DNA from: a virus
Strand: one strand, 5' to 3'
Virus record (IMG/VR): IMGVR_UViG_3300017742_002445
Location: 1 to 30,176 of that record
DNA: 30,176 bases
Shown: positions 5,719 through 27,085 of the stretch, piece by piece
Numbering within the stretch: position 1 is the stretch's first letter
How the letters are laid out: every line of letters begins with the position of its first letter
Program-made: the position numbers and the translations under genes
The notes under the pieces: model-generated
What the model was told of the DNA's origin: nothing
The model's input: the letters and a program-made list of their open reading frames with translations, nothing else
Databases searched by the model: none

Positions 5719-6202
5719 TGGAAATGTATACCCGATATGGGACGATAGTTACAAAAATTATAACTTTGTGAAGCAACCTATTTCGCAAGACGAAATAAAT
5801 TTATGGCGTTCACAAGGGTATGATCACAAAAGTTTTAGTGGCACAATGTATGGTGGTAAAAATGTTATGCCAGCTTGGATACACAAAGTTTCAGATATAC
5901 TAAACTTACAAAAAAGTGGCCACGTAATTTATCGTATGGACACTAATGATATTATGCCTACACATTCAGACCACTATAATACATACTGCAAAGTCTTTAA
6001 TGTAGAATATAACGATGTATATCGTGCAATAGTCTTTTTAGAAGACTGGAGGCCTGGGCACTATTTTGAAATAGATAATACAGGATGTACAAATTGGAAG
6101 GCAGGAGATTACTATTTATGGAAGGGGGATGTAGTACATGCCGCAAGTAATATAGGAATTGATCCTAGGTATACGCTACAAATAACAGGAACTATATTAT
6201 GA
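5705..6202 (+). CDS. 2-oxoglutarate/Fe(II)-dependent oxygenase-like protein
   Basis: A 165-residue protein with the iron facial triad of the double-stranded beta-helix oxygenases: HSD at 87-89 (H-x-D), His145 in GDVVHAAS, and Arg155 in RYTLQITG, placed to bind 2-oxoglutarate. The spacing (about 56 residues from HxD to distal His, then 10 to Arg) is typical of compact 2OG oxygenases. GTG 5705 is the only start that keeps the conserved-looking N-terminal segment (GNVYPIWDDSY); it overlaps the amidinotransferase end by 14 bases. It ends with an ATGA overlap to the next gene. Likely an oxidative tailoring enzyme acting with the amidinotransferase. Substrate unknown; prolyl-hydroxylase-like activity cannot be excluded. 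Confidence 0.75.
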   Translation: MQWTSGNVYPIWDDSYKNYNFVKQPISQDEINLWRSQGYDHKSFSGTMYGGKNVMPAWIHKVSDILNLQKSGHVIYRMDTNDIMPTHSDHYNTYCKVFNVEYNDVYRAIVFLEDWRPGHYFEIDNTGCTNWKAGDYYLWKGDVVHAASNIGIDPRYTLQITGTIL

Positions 6203-12847: not shown

Positions 12848-13120
12848 TTACTTCTTTGCAGCGTCTTCTGCTTTAATTGTAGATTTTAGTTCAGCTATCA
12901 TTTCCTCTGCCATTTCAACAGTACGCATTGCTATCCTATGTGGCGTATTTGGAAACAGGAACGGAAAAAAGGCGTGGATATATCCTGTAATAGGATTTAA
13001 CAACCCCCAAGAAGAAATTTTAATTGCATACCACATATGCTTAAAATAACTACTACGGACTTCTTTGAGATGTTCAGTGTTTACTAACCATCCATATTTG
13101 CCTAAATCTCCAAACTTCAT
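12848..13120 (-). CDS. Small membrane protein, DUF6356-like, second of a tandem pair
   Basis: A 90-residue protein starting at ATG 13120, two bases after the stop of its twin and behind a GAGG ribosome binding site; the longer frame from 13153 would overlap the twin by 32 bases. It shares with the twin a TEHLKEVRSSYFKHM opening, a single hydrophobic segment (WGLLNPITGYIHAFFPFLF) with the I-H-x-FFPF motif, and a C-terminal helix. The C-terminus is longer and ends Lys/Ala-rich. The motif pattern is that of the DUF6356 family, whose function is unknown to me. The pair ends the - strand operon before the terminator. Confidence 0.7.
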   Translation of the reverse strand: MKFGDLGKYGWLVNTEHLKEVRSSYFKHMWYAIKISSWGLLNPITGYIHAFFPFLFPNTPHRIAMRTVEMAEEMIAELKSTIKAEDAAKK

Positions 13121-13121
13121 T

Positions 13122-13340
13122 TTATACCTCGTGATGACTAAATGTTTGCTCAACTAAGCTTGCTAGCTTTTTTGCACAATACATAGATGAATCATTTAGT
13201 AAAAACGGAAAGATTCCGTGAATTGTACTTGTGACAAATACTGCTGCTGACCACGTGATCATATTAAGCCCAATTTTTAGGTGCCCAAAATAAGTTTCGC
13301 CTGCGCCTTCTTTATTTAAATGTGTTGTTAGTGTTGTCAT
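13122..13340 (-). CDS. Small membrane protein, DUF6356-like, first of a tandem pair
   Basis: A 72-residue protein with an HLN-x-EGAGETYFGHLK opening, one hydrophobic span (about 28-50: MITWSAAVFVTSTIHGIFPF) carrying the IHG-x-FPF motif, and a short helical tail. The HL...GETYF-H...IH-x-x-PF pattern matches the DUF6356 family. The ATG is preceded by AAAGGAG, and a late promoter box lies 32 bases upstream. It may insert in the host inner membrane; a role in lysis or virion assembly cannot be told from the sequence. Confidence 0.75.
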   Translation of the reverse strand: MTTLTTHLNKEGAGETYFGHLKIGLNMITWSAAVFVTSTIHGIFPFLLNDSSMYCAKKLASLVEQTFSHHEV

Positions 13341-13371: not shown

Positions 13372-13379
13372 TATTTATA
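13372..13379 (-). promoter_or_regulatory. T4-type late promoter box (TATAAATA) for the DUF6356-like pair
   Basis: Read on the - strand the bases are TATAAATA, the exact T4 late consensus, with an AAAGGAG ribosome binding site and the ATG at 13340 downstream (31 bases from the box). It sits in a 39-base gap immediately after the methyltransferase stop. Confidence 0.72.
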
Positions 13380-14012
13380 TTAATACCCAACTAAACTTGC
13401 TATAACTGGTAGACGTACTTGAATATCAATATAGTTAAACCAGTTAGTTGTTCCTACTTCTATTGTATGATAAGATAAATGTTTTTTCAAATATTCAGTA
13501 TCAAATGCACTCCAAAGAATTCCATTCTTATCTGTAGTATAAGAAACATCGCCGCCTTCAAAGGATAGATCATAATATTTTTCTTTAAATTTTTCAAGAA
13601 ATTGATTGTTATTAGGATCTATATAAGTAAAAGCTATTCTATTAGTATACCGAGATAGATTATCTATACAATACAACATTTCTTCTAGTGTATGATGTGT
13701 AAACACACTGTTTGCAAATATAATATCATAATATTTAATCTTAGGAAAGGGTTCTTTTATATTTCCTGTAGGATTATAGTAAGAATGATACTTATTCCAA
13801 TGAATACTATTGACTAGCGGAAAATCGTTATGCAAAAAATTAAGAGCTTCTTTACTGACATCTAAACAAGTATAGCTTTCCTGGCGTATTTTTCCTTCGC
13901 TGGAAGCGATAAGATTGCCTCTGTTACCTCCAAAGTCTAATATTGTTTTGTCATTGTAGTTATCTACAAATTGATCAAAAATTGAAAATGTATTAGTTTT
14001 TCTAAATATCAT
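13380..14012 (-). CDS. SAM-dependent methyltransferase (class I)
   Basis: A 210-residue class I methyltransferase. Motif I is ILDFGGNRGN (about 24-33), the acidic end of beta2 is CLDVSKEAL (Asp51), and a motif-IV-like DIIFANSVFTHH follows near 95-106, with the usual helices between. Family members of this kind are often small-molecule O- or N-methyltransferases. It is the last gene of the P450-halogenase operon, coupled to the 2OG oxygenase by an ATGA overlap, so a tailoring role on the same product is the reasonable inference. Substrate unknown. Confidence 0.8.
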   Translation of the reverse strand: MIFRKTNTFSIFDQFVDNYNDKTILDFGGNRGNLIASSEGKIRQESYTCLDVSKEALNFLHNDFPLVNSIHWNKYHSYYNPTGNIKEPFPKIKYYDIIFANSVFTHHTLEEMLYCIDNLSRYTNRIAFTYIDPNNNQFLEKFKEKYYDLSFEGGDVSYTTDKNGILWSAFDTEYLKKHLSYHTIEVGTTNWFNYIDIQVRLPVIASLVGY

Positions 14013-14539
14013 GGAAATATATCAGCAACGATATGTATACGATCCTCTTTGCTGCCGTTAAGTGCTGTATGAGCGTGTGTAGTACGTGTAAGACACCATT
14101 TATCTTGCTCTAAGTGCTTTACTTCGTCTTGTATTACCATTAAGCAGCCTTCCTGCGTTTTGATAGGATAGTGTAGTCTAGGTACAGGATCTTGATGCCA
14201 TGCTAAACAAGTATTAGGAGAAGATTTCATAAGACGTATCCTGCCAATTTTATACATTGACTTAACGGCATAAAATAATTCCGCAAATGGTGTATCTACA
14301 AATATGTCGCATAAATGCCAATTTCCGTCCTTTAAGGATTGAATTACTTCACTTTGTCCTATCTTATCTCCAAAATTGTACTCTTTCAATAATCTGCCAA
14401 CTCCGAATGTAGTATCATGAGTTAAATTTTGCGGAGCATTTATACAAATTTGGTTTCCGGTCCATTCAATATCTAGCTGTTGTAGCTGTGCATACAAGTT
14501 CAAAAAAGGTGGTAAGTCAACGTTTTCATAATATGACAT
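14009..14539 (-). CDS. Aspartyl/asparaginyl beta-hydroxylase-type 2OG-Fe(II) oxygenase
   Basis: A 176-residue protein with the facial triad of the aspartyl/asparaginyl hydroxylase group: WHQD with His115 and Asp117, Arg121 a few residues later, His157 in HTALNG and Arg167 in EDRIHIV, which should hold 2-oxoglutarate. The H-x-D-x3-R and H-x3-N pairing is characteristic of this group. The small size is usual for bacterial and phage members. GGAAA lies in front of the ATG, nine bases after the small membrane protein. Probably hydroxylates the product of the operon; the known family acts on peptidyl Asp/Asn or free amino acids, so a peptide or amino acid precursor is an option. Confidence 0.78.
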   Translation of the reverse strand: MSYYENVDLPPFLNLYAQLQQLDIEWTGNQICINAPQNLTHDTTFGVGRLLKEYNFGDKIGQSEVIQSLKDGNWHLCDIFVDTPFAELFYAVKSMYKIGRIRLMKSSPNTCLAWHQDPVPRLHYPIKTQEGCLMVIQDEVKHLEQDKWCLTRTTHAHTALNGSKEDRIHIVADIFP

Positions 14540-14548
14540 TGCGTTTCC

Positions 14549-14773
14549 TTACAACGGCCTAGGAAACCAATTAGGTTTTCTGTTTTGGATATACAAGATT
14601 ATTAATATAAATTCTCTATACAAAGGTATCATGCATGCAACTACACGCTCAAGTAGTGTAACTTTACTCCAAACACTACCAACAAAAGTATTATGTTTTA
14701 CTTCCTTTTCAATTATATATATTGCAAAAAATGTAACAGGAAAATAGGATATGTAGAATAATAGTTCAAACAT
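14549..14773 (-). CDS. Small membrane protein (74 aa)
   Basis: A 74-residue protein with two hydrophobic spans (about 2-20, FELLFYISYFPVTFFAIYI, and 45-62, CMIPLYREFILIILYI) and a polar loop between them, ending in a Pro-rich basic tail. ATG 14773 is chosen because it overlaps the upstream radical SAM stop and follows a GAGA ribosome binding site; a start at 14797 would lie deeper in that gene. Its place inside the tailoring operon suggests anchoring of an enzyme or export of a product, but no transporter signature is visible. Confidence 0.6.
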   Translation of the reverse strand: MFELLFYISYFPVTFFAIYIIEKEVKHNTFVGSVWSKVTLLERVVACMIPLYREFILIILYIQNRKPNWFPRPL

Positions 14774-16787
14774 TAAAAATCTCACTTTCATTTTCACTAA
14801 TAAGTTGCAGTACTTCTTCGTATGATCTATCTAATATTGTCATATGTAAGAAAATTCTATCCTTTTTATTAGTTTGTATACTATGCATCCTGCTAAGATT
14901 TAATACAGCACAGTCATAGTATACATCAACTGCTTCGTCCCAGGTGACAGGACTATCTGTGTCTAGCACTATTTGTATAGCAGTAGCATCTTGTTCAGTT
15001 CTTGGTTTTAAATAACTGTCTGCAGCCTGAATAAAAAAACTAGGAGAAACTGTACAACCAAGAATTTTTTCCATCTTTTGCACAATAGCATTAGCAGTTG
15101 TACATTCTGTAATATCTTCTACTGCCTTGAGAACTTCTAATTGAGGAATATCTACTAAATTTGTTGCTTGTAAAAATTCTTCTTTCAATGTGTCTTTAAG
15201 TGTTTGCTCTATTGATAAATTTTTCATGTATTTAATATTAGGTGCGGAAGGTTCTACATCTAAAAAGTTTTCAACTTTAGAATAATAACTTTTTTCTAAA
15301 TACTGTCTAGCTTGCCTTCTAACTTTATTGTTTGCAAAAAGTTCTGTGAATGTCATTACTCTAAGCTCATCAAAAGTAAATCCTAAGCATTGATAAAACA
15401 TCAAAAAGAAAGTAGACACTCTAATATCCTCTAAAATTGTGCCTTGCAAATGCTTTACATATTCAACTGTTTCATCTGCAGACCAATGCTCATTTGTCCA
15501 CTTGTTTGCGGTGTCTGCAGAGTTATCAATTGTGTATCCATACAGTTCTGGATTTTTAGAAAGGATAGATGCAGTTCCTAGTTCTAAGGGACTAAACGAA
15601 AATGCATCAAATAAATGTTTGTTCTCTACAAGTTCAGCAGTCCATTTATCCATAGTTTCTCTACTATCATGCGGAAGTCCTGCAATAAAACTACCGTATA
15701 CACTTAATGATCCGTTAAATTCTTCTTTTGCATTTCTGATTGTTTCGAATATAACTTCTTTAGGACATCCTTTTCCAATTGCTTTTGCTGACTCGAAATT
15801 TAAACTTTCTACACCTAAAAACCAAGCACGTACATTTATTTTCTTTAGCAGTTCCAGTTGTTCTGGATATCTTGCTATCAAATCAATTCTAATAAAAGCT
15901 GCAAATTGTAATTGTTCTGGCAAATCTATTTCATCAATAGCATCTGCTATTGCTTGTAATTTTATTGTTTGCTCGTTAAATGTATCATCTATAATTACAT
16001 ACTTAGTAGTGCCATATAATTCATAGTTTTGTTTTAATTCATCTTTTATGCGGTCTTTTTCTCTTAGAAAGGACAAGTCTCCTTTCTTCTTACCAATCAA
16101 TGGATATGCACAAAACTTACATCTAAAAATACATCCTCGCCCAAACTCTATGCCCATACCGTCACCAGAATTCCAAAAATCTTCTGGGACATAATTTATA
16201 TGTGCATTTCTAAAGTCAAAAAGCTCTCCTCTTTGATCGTAATCAATTACTTTTGGTTCTAATCCGTAAGCAGGATTATAATTAAGTATAGTACCATTTT
16301 TTATATGATCTGTTATGTGTAAAGCTGCATGTTCGCCCATTCCTACTACATAATAGTCTATACAATCCTTAACTAATGGCACACGATATGCATCCATTAT
16401 ACCGCCATAGACAGTTTTTATTCCTTTAGAACGTATGTAATCTGTCATTGATTTTATATCAACGTCATTAGTAGGCCAATGCCATAACATGTTCTGTTTT
16501 GCTGTATCTCTTGTGTGACGTTTTCTATAAACATCTTTTTGTGATCTCATAAACAGTGTAGAACTAAATCCTACCCATAAAGTATTATCACCTATTAATT
16601 TATCCAAGATTTGATTAATATTACCTTTTTGTATAAAGTGGGAAAAGTTACTTAATACAAATACACTATACCCTTCGTTACGAAGTGCAGAAGCAATTTT
16701 GTACCCGCCGACTGCTCTTGCAACATTAAAAACAGGATCACTTCCTTCTGTCATTATAATTATATCATATGTGTTTTTTATTTTCAT
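14766..16787 (-). CDS. Large radical SAM protein with B12-binding-like N-terminal domain
   Basis: A 673-residue enzyme. Residues about 5-165 form a Rossmann-like domain of the type that precedes B12-dependent radical SAM enzymes (IASALRNEGYSVFVLSNF; YYVVGMGEHAAL), but no D-x-H-x2-G cobalt-ligand motif is visible, so cobalamin may be absent or bound another way. The cluster motif is GCIFRCKFC (Cys219, Cys223, Cys226), followed by a TIM-barrel-like domain up to about 420. A C-terminal region of about 250 residues is less conserved. It lies one base after the adenylate-forming gene and overlaps the small membrane protein. Such proteins do methylations, C-C bond formation or ring rearrangements in natural-product pathways; the reaction here is unknown. 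Confidence 0.8.
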   Translation of the reverse strand: MKIKNTYDIIIMTEGSDPVFNVARAVGGYKIASALRNEGYSVFVLSNFSHFIQKGNINQILDKLIGDNTLWVGFSSTLFMRSQKDVYRKRHTRDTAKQNMLWHWPTNDVDIKSMTDYIRSKGIKTVYGGIMDAYRVPLVKDCIDYYVVGMGEHAALHITDHIKNGTILNYNPAYGLEPKVIDYDQRGELFDFRNAHINYVPEDFWNSGDGMGIEFGRGCIFRCKFCAYPLIGKKKGDLSFLREKDRIKDELKQNYELYGTTKYVIIDDTFNEQTIKLQAIADAIDEIDLPEQLQFAAFIRIDLIARYPEQLELLKKINVRAWFLGVESLNFESAKAIGKGCPKEVIFETIRNAKEEFNGSLSVYGSFIAGLPHDSRETMDKWTAELVENKHLFDAFSFSPLELGTASILSKNPELYGYTIDNSADTANKWTNEHWSADETVEYVKHLQGTILEDIRVSTFFLMFYQCLGFTFDELRVMTFTELFANNKVRRQARQYLEKSYYSKVENFLDVEPSAPNIKYMKNLSIEQTLKDTLKEEFLQATNLVDIPQLEVLKAVEDITECTTANAIVQKMEKILGCTVSPSFFIQAADSYLKPRTEQDATAIQIVLDTDSPVTWDEAVDVYYDCAVLNLSRMHSIQTNKKDRIFLHMTILDRSYEEVLQLISENESEIFNV

Positions 16788-16788
16788 A

Positions 16789-17550
16789 TTAACCTTTTTT
16801 TGGATTGTTAAAATCTACTGTAGCGTTACTTCTACCAGTGTAAAATAAATATCCATCTTTTTCTATAACAGTATCATTAGTGTTGAACCATCCGTCGTAT
16901 ACACAAATATCCCCGCATACCCACAAACACGAATCAACAACATGCCAATTACAATTAAAAATGCTGCCAAGGATAGTTGAATTATTGGGTGTTACTTCTT
17001 TAATACTATTTACATCTTCAATACTATTAAACATCTCCATAATAGCATTTACTCCTATCTCAGTCATTCCCCAAATTGTAATTACTTTTGCTCCTCTGTT
17101 TATAAATGCCTCTATTATATCATAAGTAACAGGTTCTGATCCTATTAAAAATGTTTTGCCTGTTAAATCTAATGTTTTGAAGCCTTTGGTTAACATAACA
17201 GCCTTTGCTTGTTTAGGTGTTAAATGCGTATGTGTATATTTAGTAGCTACACGAACGTATTCGTAAGGACTAAACTTACCGTAGTCTACAGTTGCTCCTA
17301 CTAATAGTGCAGGTATTGTTTGTGCAAATAATCCGCCTGCACGTTGAGGATTTAGACAAGTGTACACTGTACTTTCTTTTGTAATATTTTGTATATGTGC
17401 AGCAAACTTTGCGTCTGCTTGTATCTTTACAGGTGACTGAAAAATTGCTTTTGGATCTCCTGCAGAGCCAGAAGTATATATAGTAACTCCGTTATCTATT
17501 ACATTTTGAAAATAACCATTATCGTACTCATCATAATACTGTCTAATCAT
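16789..17550 (-). CDS. Minimal adenylate-forming (ANL) enzyme core without C-terminal domain
   Basis: A 253-residue protein related to the AMP-binding/acyl-CoA synthetase superfamily. Motif A3 is YTSGSAGDPK (25-34), motif A5 is WGMTE (160-164), A7-like WFNTND (221-226) and A8-like YTGR (237-240). The protein stops 13 residues after this, so the roughly 110-residue C-terminal domain with the catalytic lysine is missing, as is most of the usual N-terminal subdomain before A3. Full members are 450-550 residues. ATG 17550 is chosen (GGATA ribosome binding site, 8-base overlap with the halogenase) over an upstream TTG at 17568. Either a pared-down activating enzyme or a binding protein derived from one; the missing lysine argues against normal thioester chemistry unless a separate protein supplies it. 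Confidence 0.72.
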   Translation of the reverse strand: MIRQYYDEYDNGYFQNVIDNGVTIYTSGSAGDPKAIFQSPVKIQADAKFAAHIQNITKESTVYTCLNPQRAGGLFAQTIPALLVGATVDYGKFSPYEYVRVATKYTHTHLTPKQAKAVMLTKGFKTLDLTGKTFLIGSEPVTYDIIEAFINRGAKVITIWGMTEIGVNAIMEMFNSIEDVNSIKEVTPNNSTILGSIFNCNWHVVDSCLWVCGDICVYDGWFNTNDTVIEKDGYLFYTGRSNATVDFNNPKKG

Positions 17551-18727
17551 TGAAATATCCGAATTCAAATTCTTTATCTACATATCGCAATACATGGTGA
17601 CCCATAAATCTTTCAGTAATAGTTTTGAACATCGCATCATTTTGATTTGCAACATATCTTTTTAAAACATCAGTCTTTTCAATACGCTCTGATGTAGTTT
17701 TCTTTGCCCAATCCCAAAACTCATTTTGGTATATAGAGCCGCCGTGGTAGATTAGGTTAATTAAATCTTCTACTGCACGATAGTTTAGGATGCACAGTTC
17801 GTTAGCTTCATCTTGGGTAATCTCTCCGCGTATGTATTGAGAATGAATTTCAGCATTCTTGACTGCCATATAAAGAGAGTTTGCACTCATTGGTTCAAAG
17901 AACACTGCACGATTTCCACTCTTTAATATTTTATCATTAATAGTTTTCTTGCAGTAATATGGTTTTAAATCAAATGTTCTAAAATTACCCCTATCATCAT
18001 CTGATGCTTCTGTGATACGAACAAGTTCATCTTCTGCTTCTTTACGTGTACAAAACTTATTATTGTATAGGAAACCGTGTGATGTCCTATGCTGTAGAGG
18101 AATAACAAACATCCATCCGTACTTGTGTGCAACGTGTTTTGTAAAACCAAAATCAGATGGTGTTGGATCATCGTAGACTAATGCAGAGTTTAAAACAAGT
18201 TTACACTCTTCGTAATCAGAGAAATCTGTTGGTTTGCCACGACAGTCAATAATGTAATCAAAAGAATGGATATTTCCATGACCGGGCCATCCTTCATCTT
18301 GTTTGATTAATATGTCACCATTGTTTGGCATAAGTTGTGCATCGCCATCAATACAATTGTAGTTTGGATATATCTTTTGTAATCTCTTTAGCCCCATTTC
18401 GGCAAAGTCACGAGCATCAAAATGGACAGCATGATAACCAGATTGAAATGGGAATATAATTTCCTTTTCGCGCCAATCAATATACTGTGTGCCATACTTC
18501 GTTGTGCTGTTTATTTCGTTAGCTTCTGTTGCGAATATGAAATCAAATGCTTGACCAATAGCAAAGGTTACTTCTGAGGTTGTGCTTTCGCCAACGCCAA
18601 GAATAGGTTTACTTGTATCAAATATATGCGTAACTTTGCAATCAATACCGCGATTTTTAAAATCTTTAAGTATACAACCAGTAGTAAGAATACCAGCACT
18701 GCCTGCTCCTAAAATTGCAATTTTCAT
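17543..18727 (-). CDS. Flavin-dependent halogenase (tryptophan-halogenase-like)
   Basis: A FADH2-dependent halogenase-like enzyme, oxidising halide through a flavin hydroperoxide to halogenate an electron-rich substrate. The 394 residues show GAGSAG at 7-12 for FAD, GVGEST at 44-49, and TKYGTQYIDW with Lys77 in the position of the catalytic Lys79 of PrnA. GWMFVIP (205-210) is a WxFxIP form of the WxWxIP signature that marks halogenases apart from monooxygenases. A final FAD-contact segment EPMSANSLY at about 278-286 stands where PrnA has PLESTGI, so the PrnA Glu346 equivalent seems to be Ser. It is shorter than PrnA (about 540). AGGAG precedes the ATG. A halogenase from a marine cyanophage (VirX1) is known, so viral halogenases are real. 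A separate flavin reductase is not in the window. Confidence 0.85.
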   Translation of the reverse strand: MKIAILGAGSAGILTTGCILKDFKNRGIDCKVTHIFDTSKPILGVGESTTSEVTFAIGQAFDFIFATEANEINSTTKYGTQYIDWREKEIIFPFQSGYHAVHFDARDFAEMGLKRLQKIYPNYNCIDGDAQLMPNNGDILIKQDEGWPGHGNIHSFDYIIDCRGKPTDFSDYEECKLVLNSALVYDDPTPSDFGFTKHVAHKYGWMFVIPLQHRTSHGFLYNNKFCTRKEAEDELVRITEASDDDRGNFRTFDLKPYYCKKTINDKILKSGNRAVFFEPMSANSLYMAVKNAEIHSQYIRGEITQDEANELCILNYRAVEDLINLIYHGGSIYQNEFWDWAKKTTSERIEKTDVLKRYVANQNDAMFKTITERFMGHHVLRYVDKEFEFGYFND

Positions 18728-19239
18728 TTTACTCTACTCCTTGCGTCCAAGTAAATTTTATTATTTAATTTCCATATATTTTGATTAGTGTAAAATACTT
18801 CTTCTTCTGCAACAAAATCTACTATGCCTGATTTTTCTAATATAGAGTACAATTTGTTTAGTTTTAACATTTTTCCACTTGCATCGTTATCTGTATTAGT
18901 TGTAATATAGATTGGACCGTCTACATGATCTATAACTAAAGGTAAATGATAATAAAACATCCAACAATTCATATGATTTTTAGATAAACCTCCCGGAATA
19001 GAATGCAGCTGACAGCCTCTAAAAAGTGAACGATATCCGTCAGCAAATTTGTGCAAGCCACTTATGCCAACAATTTTATTATCAGCAAATGTAGCATACC
19101 AAGATCCGCCATTTGCTAAACACCAATCAAACTTCATTGCTTCTAATGTGTTATTATTTTTATATCCTAACTTATCACACTCTTGTATAAACGCGATTAA
19201 TTCAGGCGTTGCATGATATAACTGTTTTGTTTTTATCAT
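18724..19239 (-). CDS. GNAT-like N-acyltransferase (probable)
   Basis: A 171-residue protein with a WYATFADNKIVGISGLHKF stretch resembling the beta4 region of GNAT acetyltransferases, then a beta-alpha run with SLFRGCQLH; the acetyl-CoA loop (R/Q-x2-G-x-G/A) is not clearly seen. A late segment (GSWYATF...LNKLYSILEKSGIV) fits the usual C-terminal part. It sits between the P450 and the halogenase with ATGA overlaps on both sides. Probable role: transfer of an acyl group to an amine in the product. Confidence is limited because the acyl-CoA motif is weak. Confidence 0.5.
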   Translation of the reverse strand: MIKTKQLYHATPELIAFIQECDKLGYKNNNTLEAMKFDWCLANGGSWYATFADNKIVGISGLHKFADGYRSLFRGCQLHSIPGGLSKNHMNCWMFYYHLPLVIDHVDGPIYITTNTDNDASGKMLKLNKLYSILEKSGIVDFVAEEEVFYTNQNIWKLNNKIYLDARSRVK

Positions 19240-20483
19240 GAAAACTTTAACTCTAGGTCTTTATACACAGTTGTAGAACCAAACATAGCCGGTAGTAGTT
19301 CTGGTTCTTTTGTAATTTCAAATTCACTAAACCTATCTAACACAGCGTTAGTGATAATTTCTAAAAAATGTTTTACAAGAAAATCACCAGTGCAATGATG
19401 TGGACCGTATGCTAGAGTAACAGGCAACGGTTCGTTATCTCTTTCTAATTTAAACTCAAGTGGATCTTTAAAATATTTTGGATCTCTATTTGCTCCGTAT
19501 GTATAAAGAAGTATTCTGCCACCTTTGTCAAATTTGTATCCATGGTAATCTACAGTGCGTGTAATATCTCTTATTCCGCCCTTCATAGGTCCTAAACGTA
19601 AACTTTCACGTGCAAATGCAGGAACAAGGGATCTATCTTTTTTAACTCTCGCAGTAATTTCTGGATATTTACAAAAGTTCATTAAGATATTTTGATATAA
19701 ACTTAATGAAAATGTAGGTATTACAACCGTCCACAAAGATTGTATAAACATATATGCCATTTTTTTAGGATTATCATTATACTCCGATTGCTTGTCACTA
19801 AGATTTTTTGTCATGTTGATCATTGTGTCTGCATTAGGTTCGTCAATATGATAATAGTCAATTGCTTTATCTACTATTTGTGCAAACATGTTGTAAAATT
19901 CGGTTGTTTCTGCAACAGGTTTATCATAATCGAAGTCAGGATTAAAATTGCTAAAAACACCGCCAGGTTTCATCCATTGAAAGTAAGCATCCTTAACAAA
20001 CTCTTCATTAACATCTAGTATATGCCAAGGAAATTCTATGCTTTGTATCTGTGTATGTGTAACTGTGTTACCAATTATATCGTATGCTTTGAAAGGTTTT
20101 CCCTTTTTTATACTATCAAGATTACTGTATAAGTTGTTAGTGAAGATTTTAGTAAAGTCGGTAGCTCTACGCTTTAGCCAATCTAAGCTGTTCTTTTTTG
20201 CCAAATGATGATGTGGGCCTTCACGCAATGTAAGTGCATATCCTGCTCTCCATATTCCTCCTAAAGGTGTTGGATCAAAAGGAGCAGGAGATGTATTTGC
20301 TAAACTAAAATCCTCGTTCATCTTAGAAGCTTCTTTAAGCCTATCCATCGAAAATATAATCCAATGTTTATATATTGGGTGCCAATAAAACCCGCGAGGT
20401 TCTGTAGCAAATAAACATTCTGCGTGTTCGTCCATTTTATAAAGAAATTTTGGATTAACTATCTCAAAATCATTTTTGCGCAT
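19236..20483 (-). CDS. Cytochrome P450
   Basis: Heme-thiolate monooxygenase of 415 residues, length typical of soluble bacterial P450s. The heme loop is LAYGPHHCTG with Cys364 as thiolate ligand, H362 and G360 at the usual places and L357 for the common Phe. The K-helix ExxR is ESLR (293-296), and the meander carries ANRDP (331-335). The I-helix segment is VVIPT (253-257): Thr257 is kept but the acidic residue before it is Pro, which is unusual. No membrane anchor is present, so it should be cytosolic and need a ferredoxin or other electron donor, not seen here. It is the first gene of the tailoring operon, with a late promoter box 26 bases upstream. Phage P450s are rare. Confidence 0.9.
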   Translation of the reverse strand: MRKNDFEIVNPKFLYKMDEHAECLFATEPRGFYWHPIYKHWIIFSMDRLKEASKMNEDFSLANTSPAPFDPTPLGGIWRAGYALTLREGPHHHLAKKNSLDWLKRRATDFTKIFTNNLYSNLDSIKKGKPFKAYDIIGNTVTHTQIQSIEFPWHILDVNEEFVKDAYFQWMKPGGVFSNFNPDFDYDKPVAETTEFYNMFAQIVDKAIDYYHIDEPNADTMINMTKNLSDKQSEYNDNPKKMAYMFIQSLWTVVIPTFSLSLYQNILMNFCKYPEITARVKKDRSLVPAFARESLRLGPMKGGIRDITRTVDYHGYKFDKGGRILLYTYGANRDPKYFKDPLEFKLERDNEPLPVTLAYGPHHCTGDFLVKHFLEIITNAVLDRFSEFEITKEPELLPAMFGSTTVYKDLELKFS

Positions 20484-20509
20484 TTTTATCTCTAATTTAA
20501 CAGTAAATG

Positions 20510-20517
20510 TATTTATT
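20510..20517 (-). promoter_or_regulatory. Late promoter box (AATAAATA) for the P450-halogenase operon
   Basis: On the - strand this reads AATAAATA, matching NATAAATA. The ATG of the P450 is 26 bases downstream, with a TTAGAGAT ribosome binding site. It lies in the 66-base gap between the PP-loop gene and the P450, one of the largest gaps in the - strand block. If real, the eight-gene tailoring operon is expressed late. Confidence 0.6.
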
Positions 20518-20549: not shown

Positions 20550-21299
20550 TTATTCTAACTTTCCAAATGCATACAAACGTTCTGCACAAAAGAAGCAATA
20601 ACCACAATGCTTCCAATCATGCTGTTCTTTTGTATTAAATCTATGCTCTTGGTATCTTGTTTCACAACTATACGTTAGCGGATAAAGCTCTTCTAGCATA
20701 CCAAAATATTTGTAAACATCATAGACTAATTTTTTATCAGCATGAATAAAAGGACGTATATTACTAAATTTACTATTACTAATTTTACCATTAGATACTG
20801 ATACGTTTTCGTATACTTCGCTACCCAATTCTCTTTTTGGATCAGCCCCTTTGATATATCCTAGTGCAATATTAGTTATCTTGTCATCGCCATATTTTTT
20901 TATCACTGCTTCGCTTATATCTTCTTTTGAAGGATTGCTAGTAAGTCCGCTATACACTACATCTAGCCTATACTGTTTTATAGTGTTCCTAGACATCTCA
21001 ACTTGTTCCTCTGTATAAAAATTTACAGTGTCCCTATCTTTGTGCTTATTGGAATATTTTATAATATGTTTAGCAGGAGATTTTCCAGTTAACTGTGTTA
21101 CTTTATCAATAATTTTTTTAGCGCCTTCGCTATACCACGGTTTGAACTCAGTATCTAAAGTCATTGGGTAAATGTTTACATCGGTCCTATCCTTAAAGTA
21201 ATTACATACTGCATAATATAATATCGAACTGTCGGCTCCGCCTGATAATTTAACTCCAATATTTTTCCAATTATCGTCAAAGTAAAATAGTTCATTCAT
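20550..21299 (-). CDS. QueC-like PP-loop ATP pyrophosphatase
   Basis: A 249-residue enzyme of the adenine nucleotide alpha-hydrolase fold. LSGGADSS at 18-25 is the PP-loop that binds ATP phosphates. The C-terminus has a likely zinc site: Cys212 in TYSCE, then CGYCFFC (Cys232, 235, 238) and an R..AF, as in 7-cyano-7-deazaguanine synthase (QueC); the first gap is 19 residues where QueC has about 8-10. The phrase HADKKLVYDVYKYFG matches the helix before this site. QueC converts 7-carboxy- to 7-cyano-deazaguanine using ammonia and ATP. Because folE and queE lie in the same window, it might be the phage's QueC, but its place beside radical SAM and P450 genes allows another amide- or nitrile-forming role. 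It overlaps the neighbour at 21292 by 8 bases. Confidence 0.68.
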   Translation of the reverse strand: MNELFYFDDNWKNIGVKLSGGADSSILYYAVCNYFKDRTDVNIYPMTLDTEFKPWYSEGAKKIIDKVTQLTGKSPAKHIIKYSNKHKDRDTVNFYTEEQVEMSRNTIKQYRLDVVYSGLTSNPSKEDISEAVIKKYGDDKITNIALGYIKGADPKRELGSEVYENVSVSNGKISNSKFSNIRPFIHADKKLVYDVYKYFGMLEELYPLTYSCETRYQEHRFNTKEQHDWKHCGYCFFCAERLYAFGKLE

Positions 21300-22182
21300 A
21301 AACTTCTACCCTTTTCATTTTATTATATTCACACAAGTTGTAGATAATTTCTTTTTGGTCTTTATTAGTTTCTAACATTGCTACAGGAATATTTCCTATT
21401 GCATTTTTAGGATCATCTTTTGTAAATCCTAGTGCAGTTAAATAATTATTATTTTGATCCCACCATTGACTCATACCTTGTAAAAACTTATCTACGTTAT
21501 GTTGCGACCTATTAAAAAAGTATGTGTTAAATCCTGCGCTGTAATATCTTAACGGACGTATGTTATCTTCACCTACAATATCATCGCCGTCTTTGTATAT
21601 ATCATATAAAGGTTTTCCTACTTCACAATAATTGATATATACTTCACCAAAGTTTCTTAACAAAGTAAAATGTTGATAATCTTCGTCCAACAAATCATAA
21701 CGAAGACTGCGGTTAAATCTACACACAAGTCTCGGATAATTTTGTTTGTATGTACTACTGCTATAAAAACTTTCAGCTCTATGAATTATAACATTATATC
21801 TTTCAAGGGCTACTTTCTCTTGATCTGTTGCAGTTTTCCAATACTCTGCTGAAGACAATATTCCGCCACGTAATGTTTCAAAATAATGATGTAAATGATT
21901 TAATTGTTCTTGCGGCATACCTACAAATGCTGTATGATGTATAACTGTATTAGTAGAGTTTATTATTTCAATACAATGATTTAATTCATTTACTATTTTT
22001 TCTTCTGTCCAATTATCATTAGGAAAATTATATAATCTGTCAGGCTCTGCAACTGTATTATCTATTGAAACTTGCTCTATTAGCGATTCAAACCATCTAG
22101 CTGAACACGGTGTGTTATATACATTATACGTTAATGCATATTCTTGATCTAAACTGTTAGCAAATATAATACTAAACTTCAT
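21292..22182 (-). CDS. Hypothetical protein with a His-rich central stretch (296 aa)
   Basis: A 296-residue soluble protein with no family I recognise. It has a beta-rich N-terminus (KFSIIFANSLDQEYALTY), a charged helical region with HHTAFVGMPQEQLNHLHHYF and a later RNFGEVYINYCEVGKPLYDIYK, and no signal peptide or membrane span. The His pairs at about 82-83 and 97-98 may be a metal site, but this is only a visual impression. It overlaps the radical SAM gene upstream at TAATG and the PP-loop gene downstream, so it is part of that unit and may be its substrate-binding or accessory partner. Confidence 0.62.
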   Translation of the reverse strand: MKFSIIFANSLDQEYALTYNVYNTPCSARWFESLIEQVSIDNTVAEPDRLYNFPNDNWTEEKIVNELNHCIEIINSTNTVIHHTAFVGMPQEQLNHLHHYFETLRGGILSSAEYWKTATDQEKVALERYNVIIHRAESFYSSSTYKQNYPRLVCRFNRSLRYDLLDEDYQHFTLLRNFGEVYINYCEVGKPLYDIYKDGDDIVGEDNIRPLRYYSAGFNTYFFNRSQHNVDKFLQGMSQWWDQNNNYLTALGFTKDDPKNAIGNIPVAMLETNKDQKEIIYNLCEYNKMKRVEVYE

Positions 22183-23342
22183 TAGTTGTCCAATCCAAAG
22201 TATTCTCGTGTCATAGGTCCTATAACGTCTACTGCCTTCATTTTACGTTGGGCTAGTAAAACATCAAACTCGTGCTTTAGTGATTCCTTACTGTGATTAA
22301 ATGATGCTGTTGTTAATGTATTGCATAGTTCTGTCGACTTCAATTGACTTTTTACTTTATTAATTATATGGTCTGGTAAGTTTTGATAATTCTGTAAATG
22401 TGTTGCAGGTTTAATTTCGCAACTATAAGATACTAAATGTCTTACATCCCAGAAGTATTCTTCTATTTCTGGCAGAAATTCAAAATTAAAAATGTTTACT
22501 AAGTTAGCTACATTAATAGATATGTTTTCATATTTGTGAGAATTATTTTTTAGATACTCTATATTCTTATTCATTTTTTTCCAACTGTGCGGCCATCTTA
22601 TAAATTCATAGTTATTGCCTACAGAATCAATACTTATTCTTAAATGGGCTCTTTTAGTTTTAGATAGTCTAGACATTATTTCATCGTTAAGTATTGTACC
22701 GTTAGTTGTAACTTCTAACCTTAAATCTTTGCCATAATCTTGATCTATAACGTCAGCAATTTTATCCCAATTTTCTTTTAGGAATGGCTCGCCTCCTAGT
22801 AATTTAAGGGTATGAACTTTATAATTTTTTAAAATTTCTGCAACAATATTCGAAGTACTTTTAGATCCTGCTAAAGTTGAATTTATCAAAGGTATCCAAG
22901 ATTTGGGTCTATTTTCTTTTTCTAGTGTACTAGATAGTTTGTGAATTAAACTACTTGCATTACTACTACAAAATGGACATGCTAAATTACAATCATTGCC
23001 TAATACAACATCTAACTTATTAATGTCATAATTATTGTACTCTGTTTTTTGATTAAGTTTAATCCTAGGACTATCTATTCCTTTATCTTCGTAATTTTTA
23101 CAAGCCAAACATGCAGGATGTAAATCATCATTAGCTTCAAAATAATCTCTAAAGTGTTGTAACGGCATAAGTTGCATTATATCTTTTGGTGAGTCTATTT
23201 TTATAGACTTAGATATATGTGCAGGAATTAACTCGTGATTTAAATGACAACAAGGTTTAAGATTAGCATATAGACCGTCAGGATAATCGTAAAGTCTTAT
23301 ACGAACTCCTTTTTCAACAAAGCCGCAATGATTTGCCTTCAT
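22182..23342 (-). CDS. Radical SAM protein with Cys-rich N-terminus
   Basis: A 386-residue radical SAM enzyme. The cluster motif CNLACPFC lies at 118-125 (C-x3-C-x2-C), followed by a GGEPF at 183-187 and an EVTTNGTIL stretch. Ahead of it, about residues 1-100 hold five cysteines (6, 31, 32, 78, 81) with a PACLACKNYE pair, the layout of twitch-type radical SAM proteins found widely in marine phages, probably ligating a second iron-sulfur cluster. The gene starts at a TAATG overlap with the methyltransferase. The reaction is unknown; peptide, sugar or nucleoside substrates are all possible. Confidence 0.82.
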   Translation of the reverse strand: MKANHCGFVEKGVRIRLYDYPDGLYANLKPCCHLNHELIPAHISKSIKIDSPKDIMQLMPLQHFRDYFEANDDLHPACLACKNYEDKGIDSPRIKLNQKTEYNNYDINKLDVVLGNDCNLACPFCSSNASSLIHKLSSTLEKENRPKSWIPLINSTLAGSKSTSNIVAEILKNYKVHTLKLLGGEPFLKENWDKIADVIDQDYGKDLRLEVTTNGTILNDEIMSRLSKTKRAHLRISIDSVGNNYEFIRWPHSWKKMNKNIEYLKNNSHKYENISINVANLVNIFNFEFLPEIEEYFWDVRHLVSYSCEIKPATHLQNYQNLPDHIINKVKSQLKSTELCNTLTTASFNHSKESLKHEFDVLLAQRKMKAVDVIGPMTREYFGLDN

Positions 23343-23995
23343 TACTTTATTCCTATTCTCATGTATCGAGTATACTTAGATAATTGTAATTCTCCTGCAA
23401 AATATAAATGTGAAGTAGGAGTCAATCTAGCAAAATGATCTAAATCATTGCAACAATTTACGTGCTCTGTTAATTTAAAATAATTATTAGTTTGTAAAAC
23501 AACAAGTGTTCCTACAGGTATGTTATTGTACCATTTTATAAAATCGCTTGTTGGTATATGTTCGCAACTTGTATTAATAATAGTATTAGGCATTTCTACT
23601 AAGTCTTGTGTAGTTCCGTTTGAACGATATGTTTTATACTCTAACGGATAATCCATGTCACATACGTCTAGAGTAGTTGCTTTAAACTGCCAGCCATCCA
23701 TTGTTTTATTTCTATTAAAAGTTTCTGCAATGCTTGCACAGGAGTCGTCTATATCAAAACTTCTTATTTTAGCTAGTTGTATATTGCTTTCAAACAAAAA
23801 CGAGGCTAAACTGCCATACCAACCGGCACATAAAAATACAGTACCTAGAGGCTGTTTAATCTTTTCTAATTCGTTTACTAACCAACGTTTTGACTCCATT
23901 TGACCTTTTGAAAATAGGTCTGTTAGATCTATATTTGGAAACTTTTTAAGTACTTGACCAAAATTGTCAAAGAATTCACTATTGTGTATTGACAT
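23342..23995 (-). CDS. SAM-dependent methyltransferase-like protein
   Basis: A 217-residue class I methyltransferase fold: a TVFLCAGWYGSLASF segment (motif I, with Ala and Tyr replacing common Gly residues), then SFDIDDSCAS with the acidic beta2 end, and NTSCEHIP in the motif-IV place. The unusual motif I leaves room for a non-methyltransferase Rossmann role. ATG 23995 is preferred to 24019 because AGGAG lies 7 bases upstream. It overlaps the GT-A-like gene and the radical SAM gene, so it belongs to that unit. Confidence 0.6.
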   Translation of the reverse strand: MSIHNSEFFDNFGQVLKKFPNIDLTDLFSKGQMESKRWLVNELEKIKQPLGTVFLCAGWYGSLASFLFESNIQLAKIRSFDIDDSCASIAETFNRNKTMDGWQFKATTLDVCDMDYPLEYKTYRSNGTTQDLVEMPNTIINTSCEHIPTSDFIKWYNNIPVGTLVVLQTNNYFKLTEHVNCCNDLDHFARLTPTSHLYFAGELQLSKYTRYMRIGIK

Positions 23996-24647
23996 TAAAC
24001 TGCTCCTGTAGCCAATCAAAATTGTTTATTAACGAAATATCATTATCGCCTTGCCCAAATTTTTTGCCAGCAATAGCACCTTGTACTGCATAATATCCAA
24101 ATTCTCCGTCTTGGATTGTACACCATGTGTTTAATCTTTGCTCAGTTTCTTTATCTTTTTGTCTAGCAATTACACGGCTGGAAAGTTTAGCACACTCTCT
24201 AAATGCTCCTTTCCATGCTTCGTACGGACTTGTATCAAATTTTGTAATATTAGAAATAAAAGGAACCGCTTTAAATTTATTGCTTATACTTGTAGTCATA
24301 TCAGAAGTAGTTGTATCTACATCGATTGTTAATTTTCGGGGAAGTAACTTTACCCCACCATAACCATATATTAATCCGTTAACTGGATTTAGACTGCGCC
24401 ATACATGTACAGTATCTAAATTATATTCGTCAACTACATAATTAAATAACATGTTTTCTGTTATAAATGCGTCACCGTCAACTGCCCAAAACATTTTTGT
24501 AAAACTTTTTTTTGCAGCGGCAACATGTGCATTATGTATACCTTTTACACCGTGAACACGTTTAGCTAGAGGAAAACGTTTTTTTAATCTTTTATAGTTC
24601 TCATCTGCATTTGGTTCTTGATAACTAATAAAAACAATATCATACAT
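23979..24647 (-). CDS. GT-A-like glycosyltransferase (probable)
   Basis: A 222-residue protein. MFWAVDGDAFI gives a DxD motif (Asp57, Asp59) at the position expected for metal-nucleotide-sugar binding in GT-A enzymes, and GYGGVKLLPR is a downstream acceptor-side segment of the kind seen in procollagen-galactosyltransferase-like and phage glycosyltransferases. The N-terminal IVFISYQEPNADENY...RFPLAKRVHG fits the first Rossmann unit. It is coupled to the dehydrogenase upstream, which should supply an acidic sugar nucleotide. The sugar and acceptor are not known. Confidence 0.62.
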   Translation of the reverse strand: MYDIVFISYQEPNADENYKRLKKRFPLAKRVHGVKGIHNAHVAAAKKSFTKMFWAVDGDAFITENMLFNYVVDEYNLDTVHVWRSLNPVNGLIYGYGGVKLLPRKLTIDVDTTTSDMTTSISNKFKAVPFISNITKFDTSPYEAWKGAFRECAKLSSRVIARQKDKETEQRLNTWCTIQDGEFGYYAVQGAIAGKKFGQGDNDISLINNFDWLQEQFNVNTQ

Positions 24648-25869
24648 TTCTTGTATTGCCGTAGCCTATTACTTTATTTTTATCACTTGTATATTTTCTC
24701 CAAGGGTCAACTACAACACTTCCAGTAGGAATAGTACAATATAGTTGATCGTTGTCGTCGCCTTCTTCCTTCATATATTTGTAAGTTGTACTTGCACTAT
24801 GTGCAAGTAAGATAACACATGGTATACCGGGTTGGTTAATATCGCCTGTAAGAGGATCTACATAAGTTGGTTGTACGCCTAACTCTATACAATAATGTCC
24901 TACTAGCAAACTGTAACTTCCGTCACAATAAGGAACACCTGGTTTGTACGCTTTGCCATGTATAAAAATAGGCATATTATTTTCTTTAGAAAGTGTAACA
25001 AGTTTTTTAGCTAAATTAGATGCTTGTATTTCTCTTGCATTCATAATGCTATCAAATAAGTCGTATCCAAGGCCTAACTCATTTGCCATAAATCTTAATG
25101 CAATATTATCTCTAGGATGACAGCCGCCGCCGTCACCCATACCTGCTGTCATGTATTGTGGGCCCATGATACGTTTGTCACTATGCGCAAGTGCGTTAGT
25201 AACTACATCAACATTTATATTACCTTGCTTTTCTGCTACGTCTTGAATCATATTCACAAGTCCAATCTTAGCACTAATAAATGTATTGTAAAATACTTTG
25301 ATACATTCACACTCGTCCCATGTACCAATCTCATATCTTGGATTATTTTCCATTACAGTTTTGTAAAAATCTACAAGCTGTTTTGCATCCCCAGTTTCGC
25401 TACCGTCTTCTGTACCTATCATTACCATTTCTGGATTAACCATGTCCCATGCTACACTGCCCATAGCAATTAAGTAAGGATTATATACAAATCGAGTATT
25501 GGGAACAAGTTTAACAAACTCTTTACGTGTTGTTCCCGGCAATACTGTGCTAATAAGTACAAGTAACTGATCTTTGTTCATGTGTTTATTAGCTTCTATC
25601 ATAACTTCTTTTACAATATCATAGCTGAAATCCTTTGGATCTAAGTGTGCAGTTGGCTCTCTTCCATCATATGCAGGGTCGTGCGGAGTAGGAACTGCAA
25701 TAAAAACAATATCTCTATCTTGTACAGCGCCTTGTATTGTTGGGAACATGTTTATTAAATGACTTTTTCTTTTTTCAATGTCGTACCCTGTTACATCATG
25801 GCCTTTACTGGCAATAGCCTCTGCGCATGGCATTCCAAGTTTACCAGTTCCTATAAAACCAATCTTCAT
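24640..25869 (-). CDS. UDP-glucose/GDP-mannose-type sugar-nucleotide 6-dehydrogenase
   Basis: Oxidises a nucleotide sugar at C6 to the uronic acid in two NAD-dependent steps. The 409 residues have the NAD site GTGKLG at 7-12, a VPTP at about 59-62, the substrate stretch ECECIKVFYN (Lys191, Asn195), and GGGCHPRD with the catalytic Cys250, followed by GKAYKPG. All domain marks are in order, and length is normal for the family. An AGGAG ribosome binding site and a late promoter box precede it. Which sugar it uses cannot be read; UDP-glucose is the commonest. It supplies an activated acidic sugar for the glycosyltransferases nearby. Confidence 0.88.
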   Translation of the reverse strand: MKIGFIGTGKLGMPCAEAIASKGHDVTGYDIEKRKSHLINMFPTIQGAVQDRDIVFIAVPTPHDPAYDGREPTAHLDPKDFSYDIVKEVMIEANKHMNKDQLLVLISTVLPGTTRKEFVKLVPNTRFVYNPYLIAMGSVAWDMVNPEMVMIGTEDGSETGDAKQLVDFYKTVMENNPRYEIGTWDECECIKVFYNTFISAKIGLVNMIQDVAEKQGNINVDVVTNALAHSDKRIMGPQYMTAGMGDGGGCHPRDNIALRFMANELGLGYDLFDSIMNAREIQASNLAKKLVTLSKENNMPIFIHGKAYKPGVPYCDGSYSLLVGHYCIELGVQPTYVDPLTGDINQPGIPCVILLAHSASTTYKYMKEEGDDNDQLYCTIPTGSVVVDPWRKYTSDKNKVIGYGNTRNV

Positions 25870-25895
25870 TAATCTACTCCTATTATATGCGTATA

Positions 25896-26492
25896 TTATT
25901 TATCGTGAAATATTGGCATAGTTGACAGGTTTGGATAATCCTTCCATGACCAAGATTTTGGCATTTTGTTTTTTGCATCATCTAACTTAGATAATCCTAA
26001 ACTTGCTGTTTCTGGAGTCATGTAGTAATGATATCCTATTGTTTCTATGCTCTGTTCTTGCCAATTAGGAAATCGAGTCCTTCCATCATAACTTAGCTTT
26101 ATTAATTCGTTTTTGTCATTCTGATTGTCGCAAAGTATCATGCCGCCGCGTCCAAGACTTAGATGTTTTTTAAATTGGAAACTAATACACATAAGCGTGT
26201 TAGGTACATAGCTATTTTCGCGCCATGTTACTGCGGCATCAATTATATTTGTGTGTGCTAAATGATAATACTCTTTCCATTTTGCATCTACTAAACGATA
26301 TTGTATACCTAATTTTTCAAATGTCATAGGTACACTAACATATGTGTGTTTAGGACAGGCAGTATGTTTAACATTATTATATCTTAGACATAATTCTATA
26401 GCATGTGTACAACTATCTACAGCTACAGCATAAGGTGAACCAAAAAAATGTGCTATCTTATCTTCAAATTCATCTATACTAACAAAACTCAT
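25896..26492 (-). CDS. Short DegT/DnrJ/EryC1-type aminotransferase
   Basis: PLP-dependent aminotransferase-like protein that in full-length relatives aminates keto-sugars. VDSCTHAIELCL at 26-37 is the cofactor-phosphate region, NIIDAA carries Asp85, which holds the PLP ring nitrogen, SFQFKKHLSLGRGG carries Lys109 as the Schiff-base lysine (with GRGG for the usual GEGG), and YYMTPETASLGL follows. At 198 residues it is about half the usual 370-400: the C-terminal domain is missing and the stop lies just past the core motifs. No continuation is seen in another frame. It is coupled to the hexapeptide acyltransferase. Either a compact phage form or a reduced protein; full activity is doubtful. Confidence 0.78.
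   Translation of the reverse strand: MSFVSIDEFEDKIAHFFGSPYAVAVDSCTHAIELCLRYNNVKHTACPKHTYVSVPMTFEKLGIQYRLVDAKWKEYYHLAHTNIIDAAVTWRENSYVPNTLMCISFQFKKHLSLGRGGMILCDNQNDKNELIKLSYDGRTRFPNWQEQSIETIGYHYYMTPETASLGLSKLDDAKNKMPKSWSWKDYPNLSTMPIFHDK
25897..25904 (-). promoter_or_regulatory. Late promoter box (GATAAATA) for the dehydrogenase operon
   Basis: Reads GATAAATA on the - strand and overlaps the stop codon of the aminotransferase gene. The dehydrogenase ATG is 27 bases downstream, with TAGGAG between them. The bases after the box (TAAATAATATACGCATATA) nearly match those after the weaker box at 10155 on the + strand. Confidence 0.68.
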
Positions 26493-27085
26493 CTTAATTT
26501 CCTTGCCGGTGTCCCAACATATACTCCTGGATTGTCTATATTTTTTGTTACGTTACTAAATGCACCAATGACTGTATTATCACATATGTCTAGTTTATTC
26601 ATTACACCAGATCTAAAATTAAACATACAATTTTTTCCTATAGTAGTTTTACCCGCAATCATTGTGCCACTGTGTAACATACAGTTATTTCCAACTGTAG
26701 TGTTATGACTAATTAAACAGTACGTTTCAACAAAACAATGTTTACCAAGAACGGCTCCTTGCATAACTGTACTAAAATTAGCAACACACGAACCTTTACC
26801 AATTACAGCACCTTCGTGTACACTAGCAGTTTCATGTATAAATGTTACACAATCGCTGTCATATTCGTCTAACAAGTCTATTGTTTGTTCTCTTTCTTTT
26901 AAGTCTAATGCAAACCCAATAAAATATTGGAAGTCATCTTTACTTTGTAAATTTTTAAATTCATCCGGAGTCATAATACTAATATCTTCATTTACAAAGT
27001 TTTTTCCATAGTACATACTGTCTTGGGTTAACATACTTTCGGAATAACCAATTATTTTTAATGGTTTTTCATTTTTTATCATCAT
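26489..27085 (-). CDS. Left-handed beta-helix acyltransferase (NeuD/PglD-like)
   Basis: A hexapeptide-repeat acyltransferase of 198 residues. After an N-terminal alpha/beta part (about 1-90), the hexads run from about 95 to 185 with IGKGSCVANFSTV, LGKHCFVETYCLI, VGNNCMLHSGTMI, IGKNCMFNFRSGV as successive turns, and a GVYVGTPARKL ending that is common in PglD/NeuD-type sugar N-acetyltransferases. The likely job is N-acylation of an amino sugar made by the neighbouring aminotransferase. It starts at an ATGA-type overlap with the glycosyltransferase-like gene. Confidence 0.82.
   Translation of the reverse strand: MMIKNEKPLKIIGYSESMLTQDSMYYGKNFVNEDISIMTPDEFKNLQSKDDFQYFIGFALDLKEREQTIDLLDEYDSDCVTFIHETASVHEGAVIGKGSCVANFSTVMQGAVLGKHCFVETYCLISHNTTVGNNCMLHSGTMIAGKTTIGKNCMFNFRSGVMNKLDICDNTVIGAFSNVTKNIDNPGVYVGTPARKLR

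Follow-up and report, generated by a model that had tools for sequence, protein, structure and literature searches.

A conserved block of genes for tailoring-type enzymes, probably one late operon, in contigs of T4-like phages

The window analysed here, a 30,176-base fragment of the virus record IMGVR_UViG_3300017742_002445, carries on its minus strand a run of ten genes (20517 to 12803). They encode a cytochrome P450, a GNAT-fold protein, a flavin-dependent halogenase, a minimal adenylate-forming (ANL) protein, a radical S-adenosylmethionine (SAM) protein, a small membrane protein, a 2-oxoglutarate (2OG) oxygenase, a methyltransferase and two small DUF6356 proteins. The same block is present in 21 IMG/VR contigs, showing that the gene order is conserved in other phages. 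The ten genes probably form one late-expressed phage operon that serves a single tailoring pathway. The initial annotation had taken the run for a late operon of a phage, with enzymes of the kind that tailor natural products, and this description stands; its limit of eight genes does not, and the halogenase proved to be an optional member.

The genes of the window are read from the plus strand between positions 1 and 12789 and from the minus strand between 12848 and 30175. The two convergent operons meet at an intrinsic terminator (12829-12803, minus strand), a strong hairpin of 12 pairs. All eight genes named initially are present on the minus strand: the P450 (19236-20483), the GNAT-fold protein (18724-19239), the halogenase (17543-18727), the ANL protein (16789-17550), the radical SAM protein (14766-16787), the small membrane protein (14549-14773), the 2OG oxygenase (14009-14539) and the methyltransferase (13380-14012). 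The gaps between them lie between -8 and +9 bases, as had been reported, and are, in order from the P450 to the methyltransferase, -4, -4, -8, +1, -8, +9 and -4; the -8 gap ahead of the small membrane protein results from the ATG at its 14773 end. Two DUF6356 paralogues (13122-13340 and 12848-13120, minus strand) continue the run up to the terminator, and the unit is therefore counted as ten genes. Measured against the nearest relatives of the window, each of the ten genes has a ratio of nonsynonymous to synonymous substitutions (dN/dS) within 0.04-0.22, indicating purifying selection on every one of them. Together with the synteny in 21 contigs, this shows that the run is not a chance set of open reading frames.

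The viral scan of IMG/VR with the halogenase returned 15 contigs and that with the P450 alignment 20, giving a union of 21. These represent 14 P450 types at 95% DNA identity, the window included. Scans with the radical SAM protein and the ANL protein, and a second scan with the halogenase, yielded these contigs again and no others, while the DUF6356 scan added two contigs that have their start within the block and, in other phages, two distant matches. At the sensitivity of these scans, the P450, ANL and radical SAM genes never occur apart in 2.9 million viral contigs, and relatives of the halogenase were found inside the block only. Where the block is not cut by a contig end, the order is P450, GNAT, halogenase, ANL and radical SAM, followed by the oxygenase and/or the methyltransferase and one or two DUF6356 genes. 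The exceptions are L007, which lacks the oxygenase, and L005, which has a single DUF6356 gene. The methyltransferase is kept in all complete loci. The order is retained at 60-80% protein identity, although the flanks of the block are of five or more kinds. In the window and L015 type, the block has a sugar/radical SAM region on one side and a fibre gene on the other; L003, L004 and L005 form a second kind, with bilin and heme genes nearby in the last two; in L007, L011 and L013 the block follows fibre-like genes and glycosyltransferases; L008 and L016 make up a fourth kind, and L024 and L031 a fifth.

A scan of 84,980 bacterial and archaeal genomes confirmed no relative of the P450 or of the radical SAM protein; the scan requires conserved words of seven to eight residues, and thus detects close relatives only and could miss remote ones. 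The proposition that these genes are found together in a bacterial genome only is not borne out by this result. Among 50,697 phage records searched with tblastn, the radical SAM, ANL and first DUF6356 proteins have no matches, the P450 has a single weak partial match in Pseudomonas phage Y1, and the halogenase has 71 matches with identities of up to about 34%. No description of the operon was found in the literature searched, which consisted mainly of non-subscription journals.

The T4-type late box AATAAATA lies at 20510-20517 on the minus strand, and 26 bases separate its end from the ATG of the P450 gene, as was originally noted. There are nine NATAAATA sites in the window, five of which are located 25-31 bases upstream of gene starts. 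None of 20,000 random placements equalled this. The permuted AT-rich control word TAATAAA also scored five sites near starts, but from a total of 26. A late box precedes the P450 gene in L009, L010 and L015 as well, and in six of the six loci tested that have an additional gene, c13, ahead of the P450, NATAAATA lies 15-34 bases upstream of c13. The box that leads the operon is thus kept although the flanking genes vary between lineages. A second box, TATAAATA (13372-13379, minus strand), is situated 31 bases upstream of the DUF6356 pair, and NATAAATA is found shortly upstream of this pair in the window and in four of six relatives tested. Matches to sigma-70 promoters in the scanned stretch were not above chance. 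The positions of the boxes suggest that the operon is read from a T4-type late promoter and expressed late in infection.

The halogenase is short (394 residues; PF04820, E-value 2e-27; phrog_2928, 8e-63). It has the features of flavin-dependent halogenases, namely a GxGxxG motif (GAGSAG), a lysine, K77, that aligns with the catalytic lysine of solved halogenases, and a WxWxIP motif in the form GWMFVIP, in which phenylalanine replaces the second tryptophan. Its PDB profile matches include PrnA and VirX1 (1.6e-8 for the latter). The glutamate of the PLES motif that marks halogenases of free tryptophan, which we take to be E346 of PrnA, is absent, the sequence being PMSANS in all 11 aligned copies. 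To judge from this motif, the substrate need not be free tryptophan.

The halogenase gene is missing from L023, L024, L031 and L035, in which the neighbouring genes are intact. When the window is compared with L015, identity drops to 68-76% across the halogenase (about 18.7-17.4 kb), as against 87-96% for most other parts of the block. The core of the window's halogenase gene is about 90% identical to that of L003, which elsewhere is mostly near 70% identical or less. The gene trees follow the same division: the window groups with L015 for the P450, GNAT, ANL and radical SAM genes and with L003 for the halogenase. The absence from four contigs, the switch in identity and the discordant trees therefore show that the halogenase is an optional, swappable member of the block, exchanged by recombination.

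The P450 (415 residues; PF00067, 7e-12) carries the hallmarks of its superfamily. The heme-binding Cys364 (AYGPHHCTG) and the E293-x-x-R296 motif are invariant in alignment A1, which has a mean identity of 87%, and there is a PDB profile match to P450tol (8e-22). However, where the I-helix of P450s typically, though not universally, has (A/G)Gx(D/E)T for oxygen activation, every aligned copy has VVIPT, with the threonine retained and the acid replaced. The structure model of the protein is poor, with a predicted local distance difference test (pLDDT) score of 58. It therefore does not settle the I-helix, and no function was read from its Foldseek matches. The proline in the I-helix led us to consider a CYP152-type peroxygenase, but this reading was dropped because the arginine of that family is absent. 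The neighbouring protein of 171 residues has no match among family hidden Markov models. Nevertheless, its AlphaFold2 model (pLDDT 87.5) has the GNAT fold and matches GNAT acetyltransferases in Foldseek (E-value 1e-5). The acetyl-CoA motif is non-canonical, and acyl transfer is a putative activity.

The ANL protein (253 residues) matches PF00501 (5e-14) over positions 167-357 of 384 and TIGR01733 (3e-11), and its ATG start is backed by the alignment. Motifs A3, A5, A7 and A8 are invariant in alignment A4. However, the N-terminal third is missing, and all copies lack the C-terminal domain that would carry the A10 lysine. The initial annotation was right in naming an adenylate-former gene, but the acylation ascribed to it is unproven because of these missing parts.

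The radical SAM protein (PF04055, 8e-15) has a CxxxCxxC motif at 219-226, with C219, C223 and C226 invariant in alignment A2, as in the superfamily. Its N-terminus resembles a B12 domain: the nearest families are B12-radical SAM proteins, with NCBIfam matches down to 2e-16, although the match to the B12-binding Pfam family is weak (E-value 0.03) and no DxHxxG motif was found in the N-terminal domain. In some loci the C-terminal domain contains an HxD...H...R pattern, while in others this domain is a separate gene. It is degenerate in the window and in L015, where the HxD has been lost (alignments A2 and A6). Neither Pfam nor the PDB profiles gave a match to this domain, which is called oxygenase-like solely from its HxD...H...R pattern. 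The 2OG oxygenase proper is of the aspartyl/asparaginyl beta-hydroxylase type (PF05118, Asp_Arg_Hydrox, 1.7e-9; PDB match "Beta-hydroxylase", 1e-8), and H115, D117, H157 and R167, which make up the HxD...H motif and the 2OG-binding arginine, are invariant in alignment A7. In the halogenase-less contigs L023, L024 and L031 the oxygenase gene is inverted within the block, and L023 and L031 have a second oxygenase copy near a fibre gene. The methyltransferase belongs to class I SAM enzymes (PF08242, 9e-7). The small membrane protein gives a weak match to DUF1240 (0.006) and has homologues in some loci. DUF6356 protein 1 (PF19883, 2.5e-6) has conserved His, YFxH, IH and PF motifs (alignment A8), and protein 2 (PF19883, 1.5e-10) is its paralogue (alignments A8 and A9).

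In the proposed pathway, one common substrate would pass in succession through oxidation and methylation by the P450, the radical SAM protein, the methyltransferase and one or two 2OG oxygenases, the radical SAM step being either a methylation or the formation of a C-C or C-X bond. Addition or transfer of an acyl or aminoacyl group would fall to the GNAT-fold protein, possibly together with the minimal ANL protein. The halogenase would act on an aromatic part of the substrate in many lineages, though not in all, and redox partners of the host would drive the P450 and the halogenase. The activities, the order of the reactions and the common substrate are predictions from the gene content. The obligate linkage, found as the same contigs in separate scans, strongly suggests that all the enzymes act on one product. 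Together with the constant order in different contexts, the shared late promoter and the optional halogenase, it fits one pathway with one substrate. The fusion of the radical SAM protein to the oxygenase-like domain in some loci, and their separation in others, was also counted in favour, and the gain, loss and exchange of a halogenase within a constant block are what would be expected of an optional decoration step.

Several observations weigh against a single pathway. No scaffold synthase or exporter was found, nor any redox partner, and a ferredoxin motif search of the DNA of the window and its relatives was empty. The P450 lacks the usual I-helix acid and its activity is therefore uncertain; the ANL protein, with no A10 lysine, may be inactive; and the fused second oxygenase-like domain of the window has lost its HxD. 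The trees of the member genes do not fully agree, and the members would therefore appear to have partly separate histories.

It is possible that the pathway, together with the neighbouring sugar and radical SAM genes, decorates the virion (tail-fibre or capsid proteins) or a glycan of the host envelope. The late boxes are in agreement with such a role, as is the failure to find an exporter or a scaffold synthase. Moreover, the flanks are rich in glycosyltransferases, sugar-nucleotide genes and fibre-like proteins, and for this reason a decorated virion or cell surface has to be weighed seriously against a diffusible product. However, the block is constant while its flanks differ between lineages, and T4-type phages keep sugar-type genes in variable islands anyway. 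We know of no P450 or halogenase chemistry on phage glycans.

It is more doubtful that the enzymes belong to a pathway for ribosomally synthesized and post-translationally modified peptides (RiPPs), or to a pearlin-like one, with the C-terminal end of a small, ribosomally made protein as their target. The candidate would be c13, a protein of about 100 residues encoded immediately ahead of the P450 in the groups L003, L004, L005, L006, L007, L011, L013 and L035. It was found in 12 contigs, adjoins the P450 block in all 12 and occurs nowhere else; among its positions are L025:9679-9981, L028:9683-9985, L029:9674-9976, L033:7951-8262, L036:9674-9982 and L035:9672-9986. The gene is the first behind the late box. 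The C-terminus, GWxIxFxPxTADL, is highly conserved, with 9 of 13 positions invariant compared with 12 of 87 elsewhere (Fisher test, 7e-5), and could offer a tryptophan for halogenation and an aspartate for hydroxylation. This tail resembles the scaffold peptides of the aminopyruvatide (PMC10635010) and pearlin pathways (PMC9303977, PMC12715798). The aminopyruvatide cluster joins a P450, a B12-radical SAM protein and a methyltransferase on a peptide with a conserved C-terminal aspartate (PMC10635010), and the P450 and radical SAM proteins give weak matches to its families ApyO (3e-4) and ApyD (2e-5). These are, however, far below the NCBIfam cut-offs, and no peptidase was seen, nor any match to a RiPP recognition element (RRE) in the window. 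Furthermore, c13 appears to be a folded alpha/beta protein, the last strand of which may be merely structural; it has no match among phage records and no significant match to known folds. The gene is absent from the window contig, from its 91-kb relative and from their closest relatives, leaving the 12 related contigs as the only ones with a candidate precursor. For the window, the substrate would then have to come from a gene located elsewhere, unless one of the DUF6356 proteins takes this part. The scaffold role of c13 is therefore a possible lead and not a conclusion. Rather speculative is the wider idea of a virus-exclusive, late natural-product pathway that would make a hydroxylated, methylated and, in some lineages, halogenated compound on a c13-type scaffold, and in which the halogenase is exchanged between phages to vary the product.

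Auxiliary genes are commonly collected by marine phages, and two related contigs have bilin reductase, heme-oxygenase-like and HemJ-like genes nearby. It is nevertheless unlikely that the block is a loose assortment of genes behind one promoter with separate functions, such as detoxification or cofactor or heme metabolism, given the strict linkage and the order maintained between diverged proteins. An assembly chimera or bacterial contamination, for which no supporting point was found, has a negligible probability: L009, L010 and L015, from three other metagenome accessions, share the block and both flanks, and there is therefore no assembly break; late boxes are present; the pattern of the halogenase exchange is not that of a join between two genomes; and related contigs carry DNA polymerase, baseplate and gp32-like genes.

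The T4-type DNA polymerase of the related contigs is nearest (50%) to those of Sinorhizobium phage Phosso (469 kb) and Agrobacterium phage Atu_ph07 (490 kb), and the baseplate genes are nearest (40%) to those of Sinorhizobium phages phiN3 and phiM12 and Caulobacter phage Cr30. Proteins like gp32 and UvsX were recognised by inspection, and the ATPase and HNH-family genes of the window are nearest to those of jumbo phages. The carriers thus resemble T4-superfamily phages of Alphaproteobacteria, some of them jumbo phages, and because these are the nearest backbone relatives, alphaproteobacterial hosts are likely. A cyanophage origin was rejected, there being no psbA in 13 contigs and a backbone closer to phages of Alphaproteobacteria. 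Contigs G013 and G005/G009 have almost no genes in common and may cover different parts of the genome. In tblastn searches the P450, radical SAM and ANL genes were not found in Phosso, phiM12/phiN3, Atu_ph07 or Cr30.

Phages are known for single auxiliary genes and, rarely, for bacteriocin clusters. Halogenases of the VirX1 and cyanophage type (phrog_2928; S-SSM7, S-MS29) have the same fold and motifs and belong to T4-superfamily marine phages. The halogenase of the block is shorter and has Ser-Ala-Asn where PrnA-type enzymes carry Leu-Glu-Ser. In the 50,697 phages, halogenases elsewhere have no radical SAM or ANL relative and no convincing P450 relative alongside. Single halogenases occur in 20 of 153 cyanophages, in which antiSMASH detected no clusters (PMC10452541). 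Phage biosynthetic clusters are described as rare and mostly as bacteriocins in temperate phages of commensal and pathogenic bacteria (Dragos et al. 2021, as summarised in PMC10452541). Compared with the clusters in that summary, the block likewise places biosynthetic genes on phages but is a late operon of T4-superfamily, probably lytic, phages with no known core enzyme. The aminopyruvatide cluster also combines a P450, a B12-radical SAM protein and a methyltransferase in one pathway; unlike it, the window has no MNIO enzyme, RRE protein or clear precursor and has a halogenase, GNAT and ANL proteins and 2OG oxygenases (PMC10635010). Viral P450s are known from giant viruses and Mycobacterium phage Adler, and there too are without redox partners of their own (PMC9405906), whereas here the P450, in 14 types, is fixed in a multi-gene operon. 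The searches of cellular genomes and cultured phages did not turn up the block, and this would mean that viruses maintain and diversify a specialised metabolism of their own. It offers a compact target for new enzyme chemistry, with a minimal ANL protein, an unusual P450, a short halogenase and a radical SAM-oxygenase fusion, and with this pathway context the role of phage halogenases becomes directly testable.

The flanks of the block contain glycosyltransferases (GT8, 1e-7; phrog_1962, 2e-12), a UDP-sugar dehydrogenase, a DegT aminotransferase, a hexapeptide acyltransferase, additional radical SAM and methyltransferase genes and fibre-like proteins. In the window the variable part, 20550-30175, holds two more radical SAM proteins, a QueC-like PP-loop protein, a UDP-sugar dehydrogenase, a short DegT aminotransferase (198 residues), a hexapeptide acyltransferase and a number of genes with no assigned family. 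The QueC-like PP-loop proteins (c6 family; 20550-21299 in the window) are multi-copy in these phages, with 10 copies in 13 loci, and in L029, L021 and L022 one copy lies inside the block between the methyltransferase and DUF6356 genes. Outside the block, the window encodes an amidinotransferase/deiminase-like protein (4744-5718; phrog_25854, by inspection) and a small protein with the 2OG-oxygenase-like pattern HSD...H...R (5705-6202).

A bilin reductase gene (PF05996, 3e-15) lies near the block in L028:2620-7703 and L029:3114-6870, and the same stretches contain heme-oxygenase-like, porin-like and PHO4-type transporter genes, some of them assigned by inspection; L028 also has a HemJ-like gene, likewise recognised by inspection. 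A Nol-like carbamoyltransferase (L054:16364-17884; phrog_1601, 1.5e-168) is encoded in the 91-kb relative of the window. In the L008/L016 and L024/L031 types, the block lies opposite the gene for a large protein with a subtilase domain (L021:18484-21216; PF00082, 1e-11).

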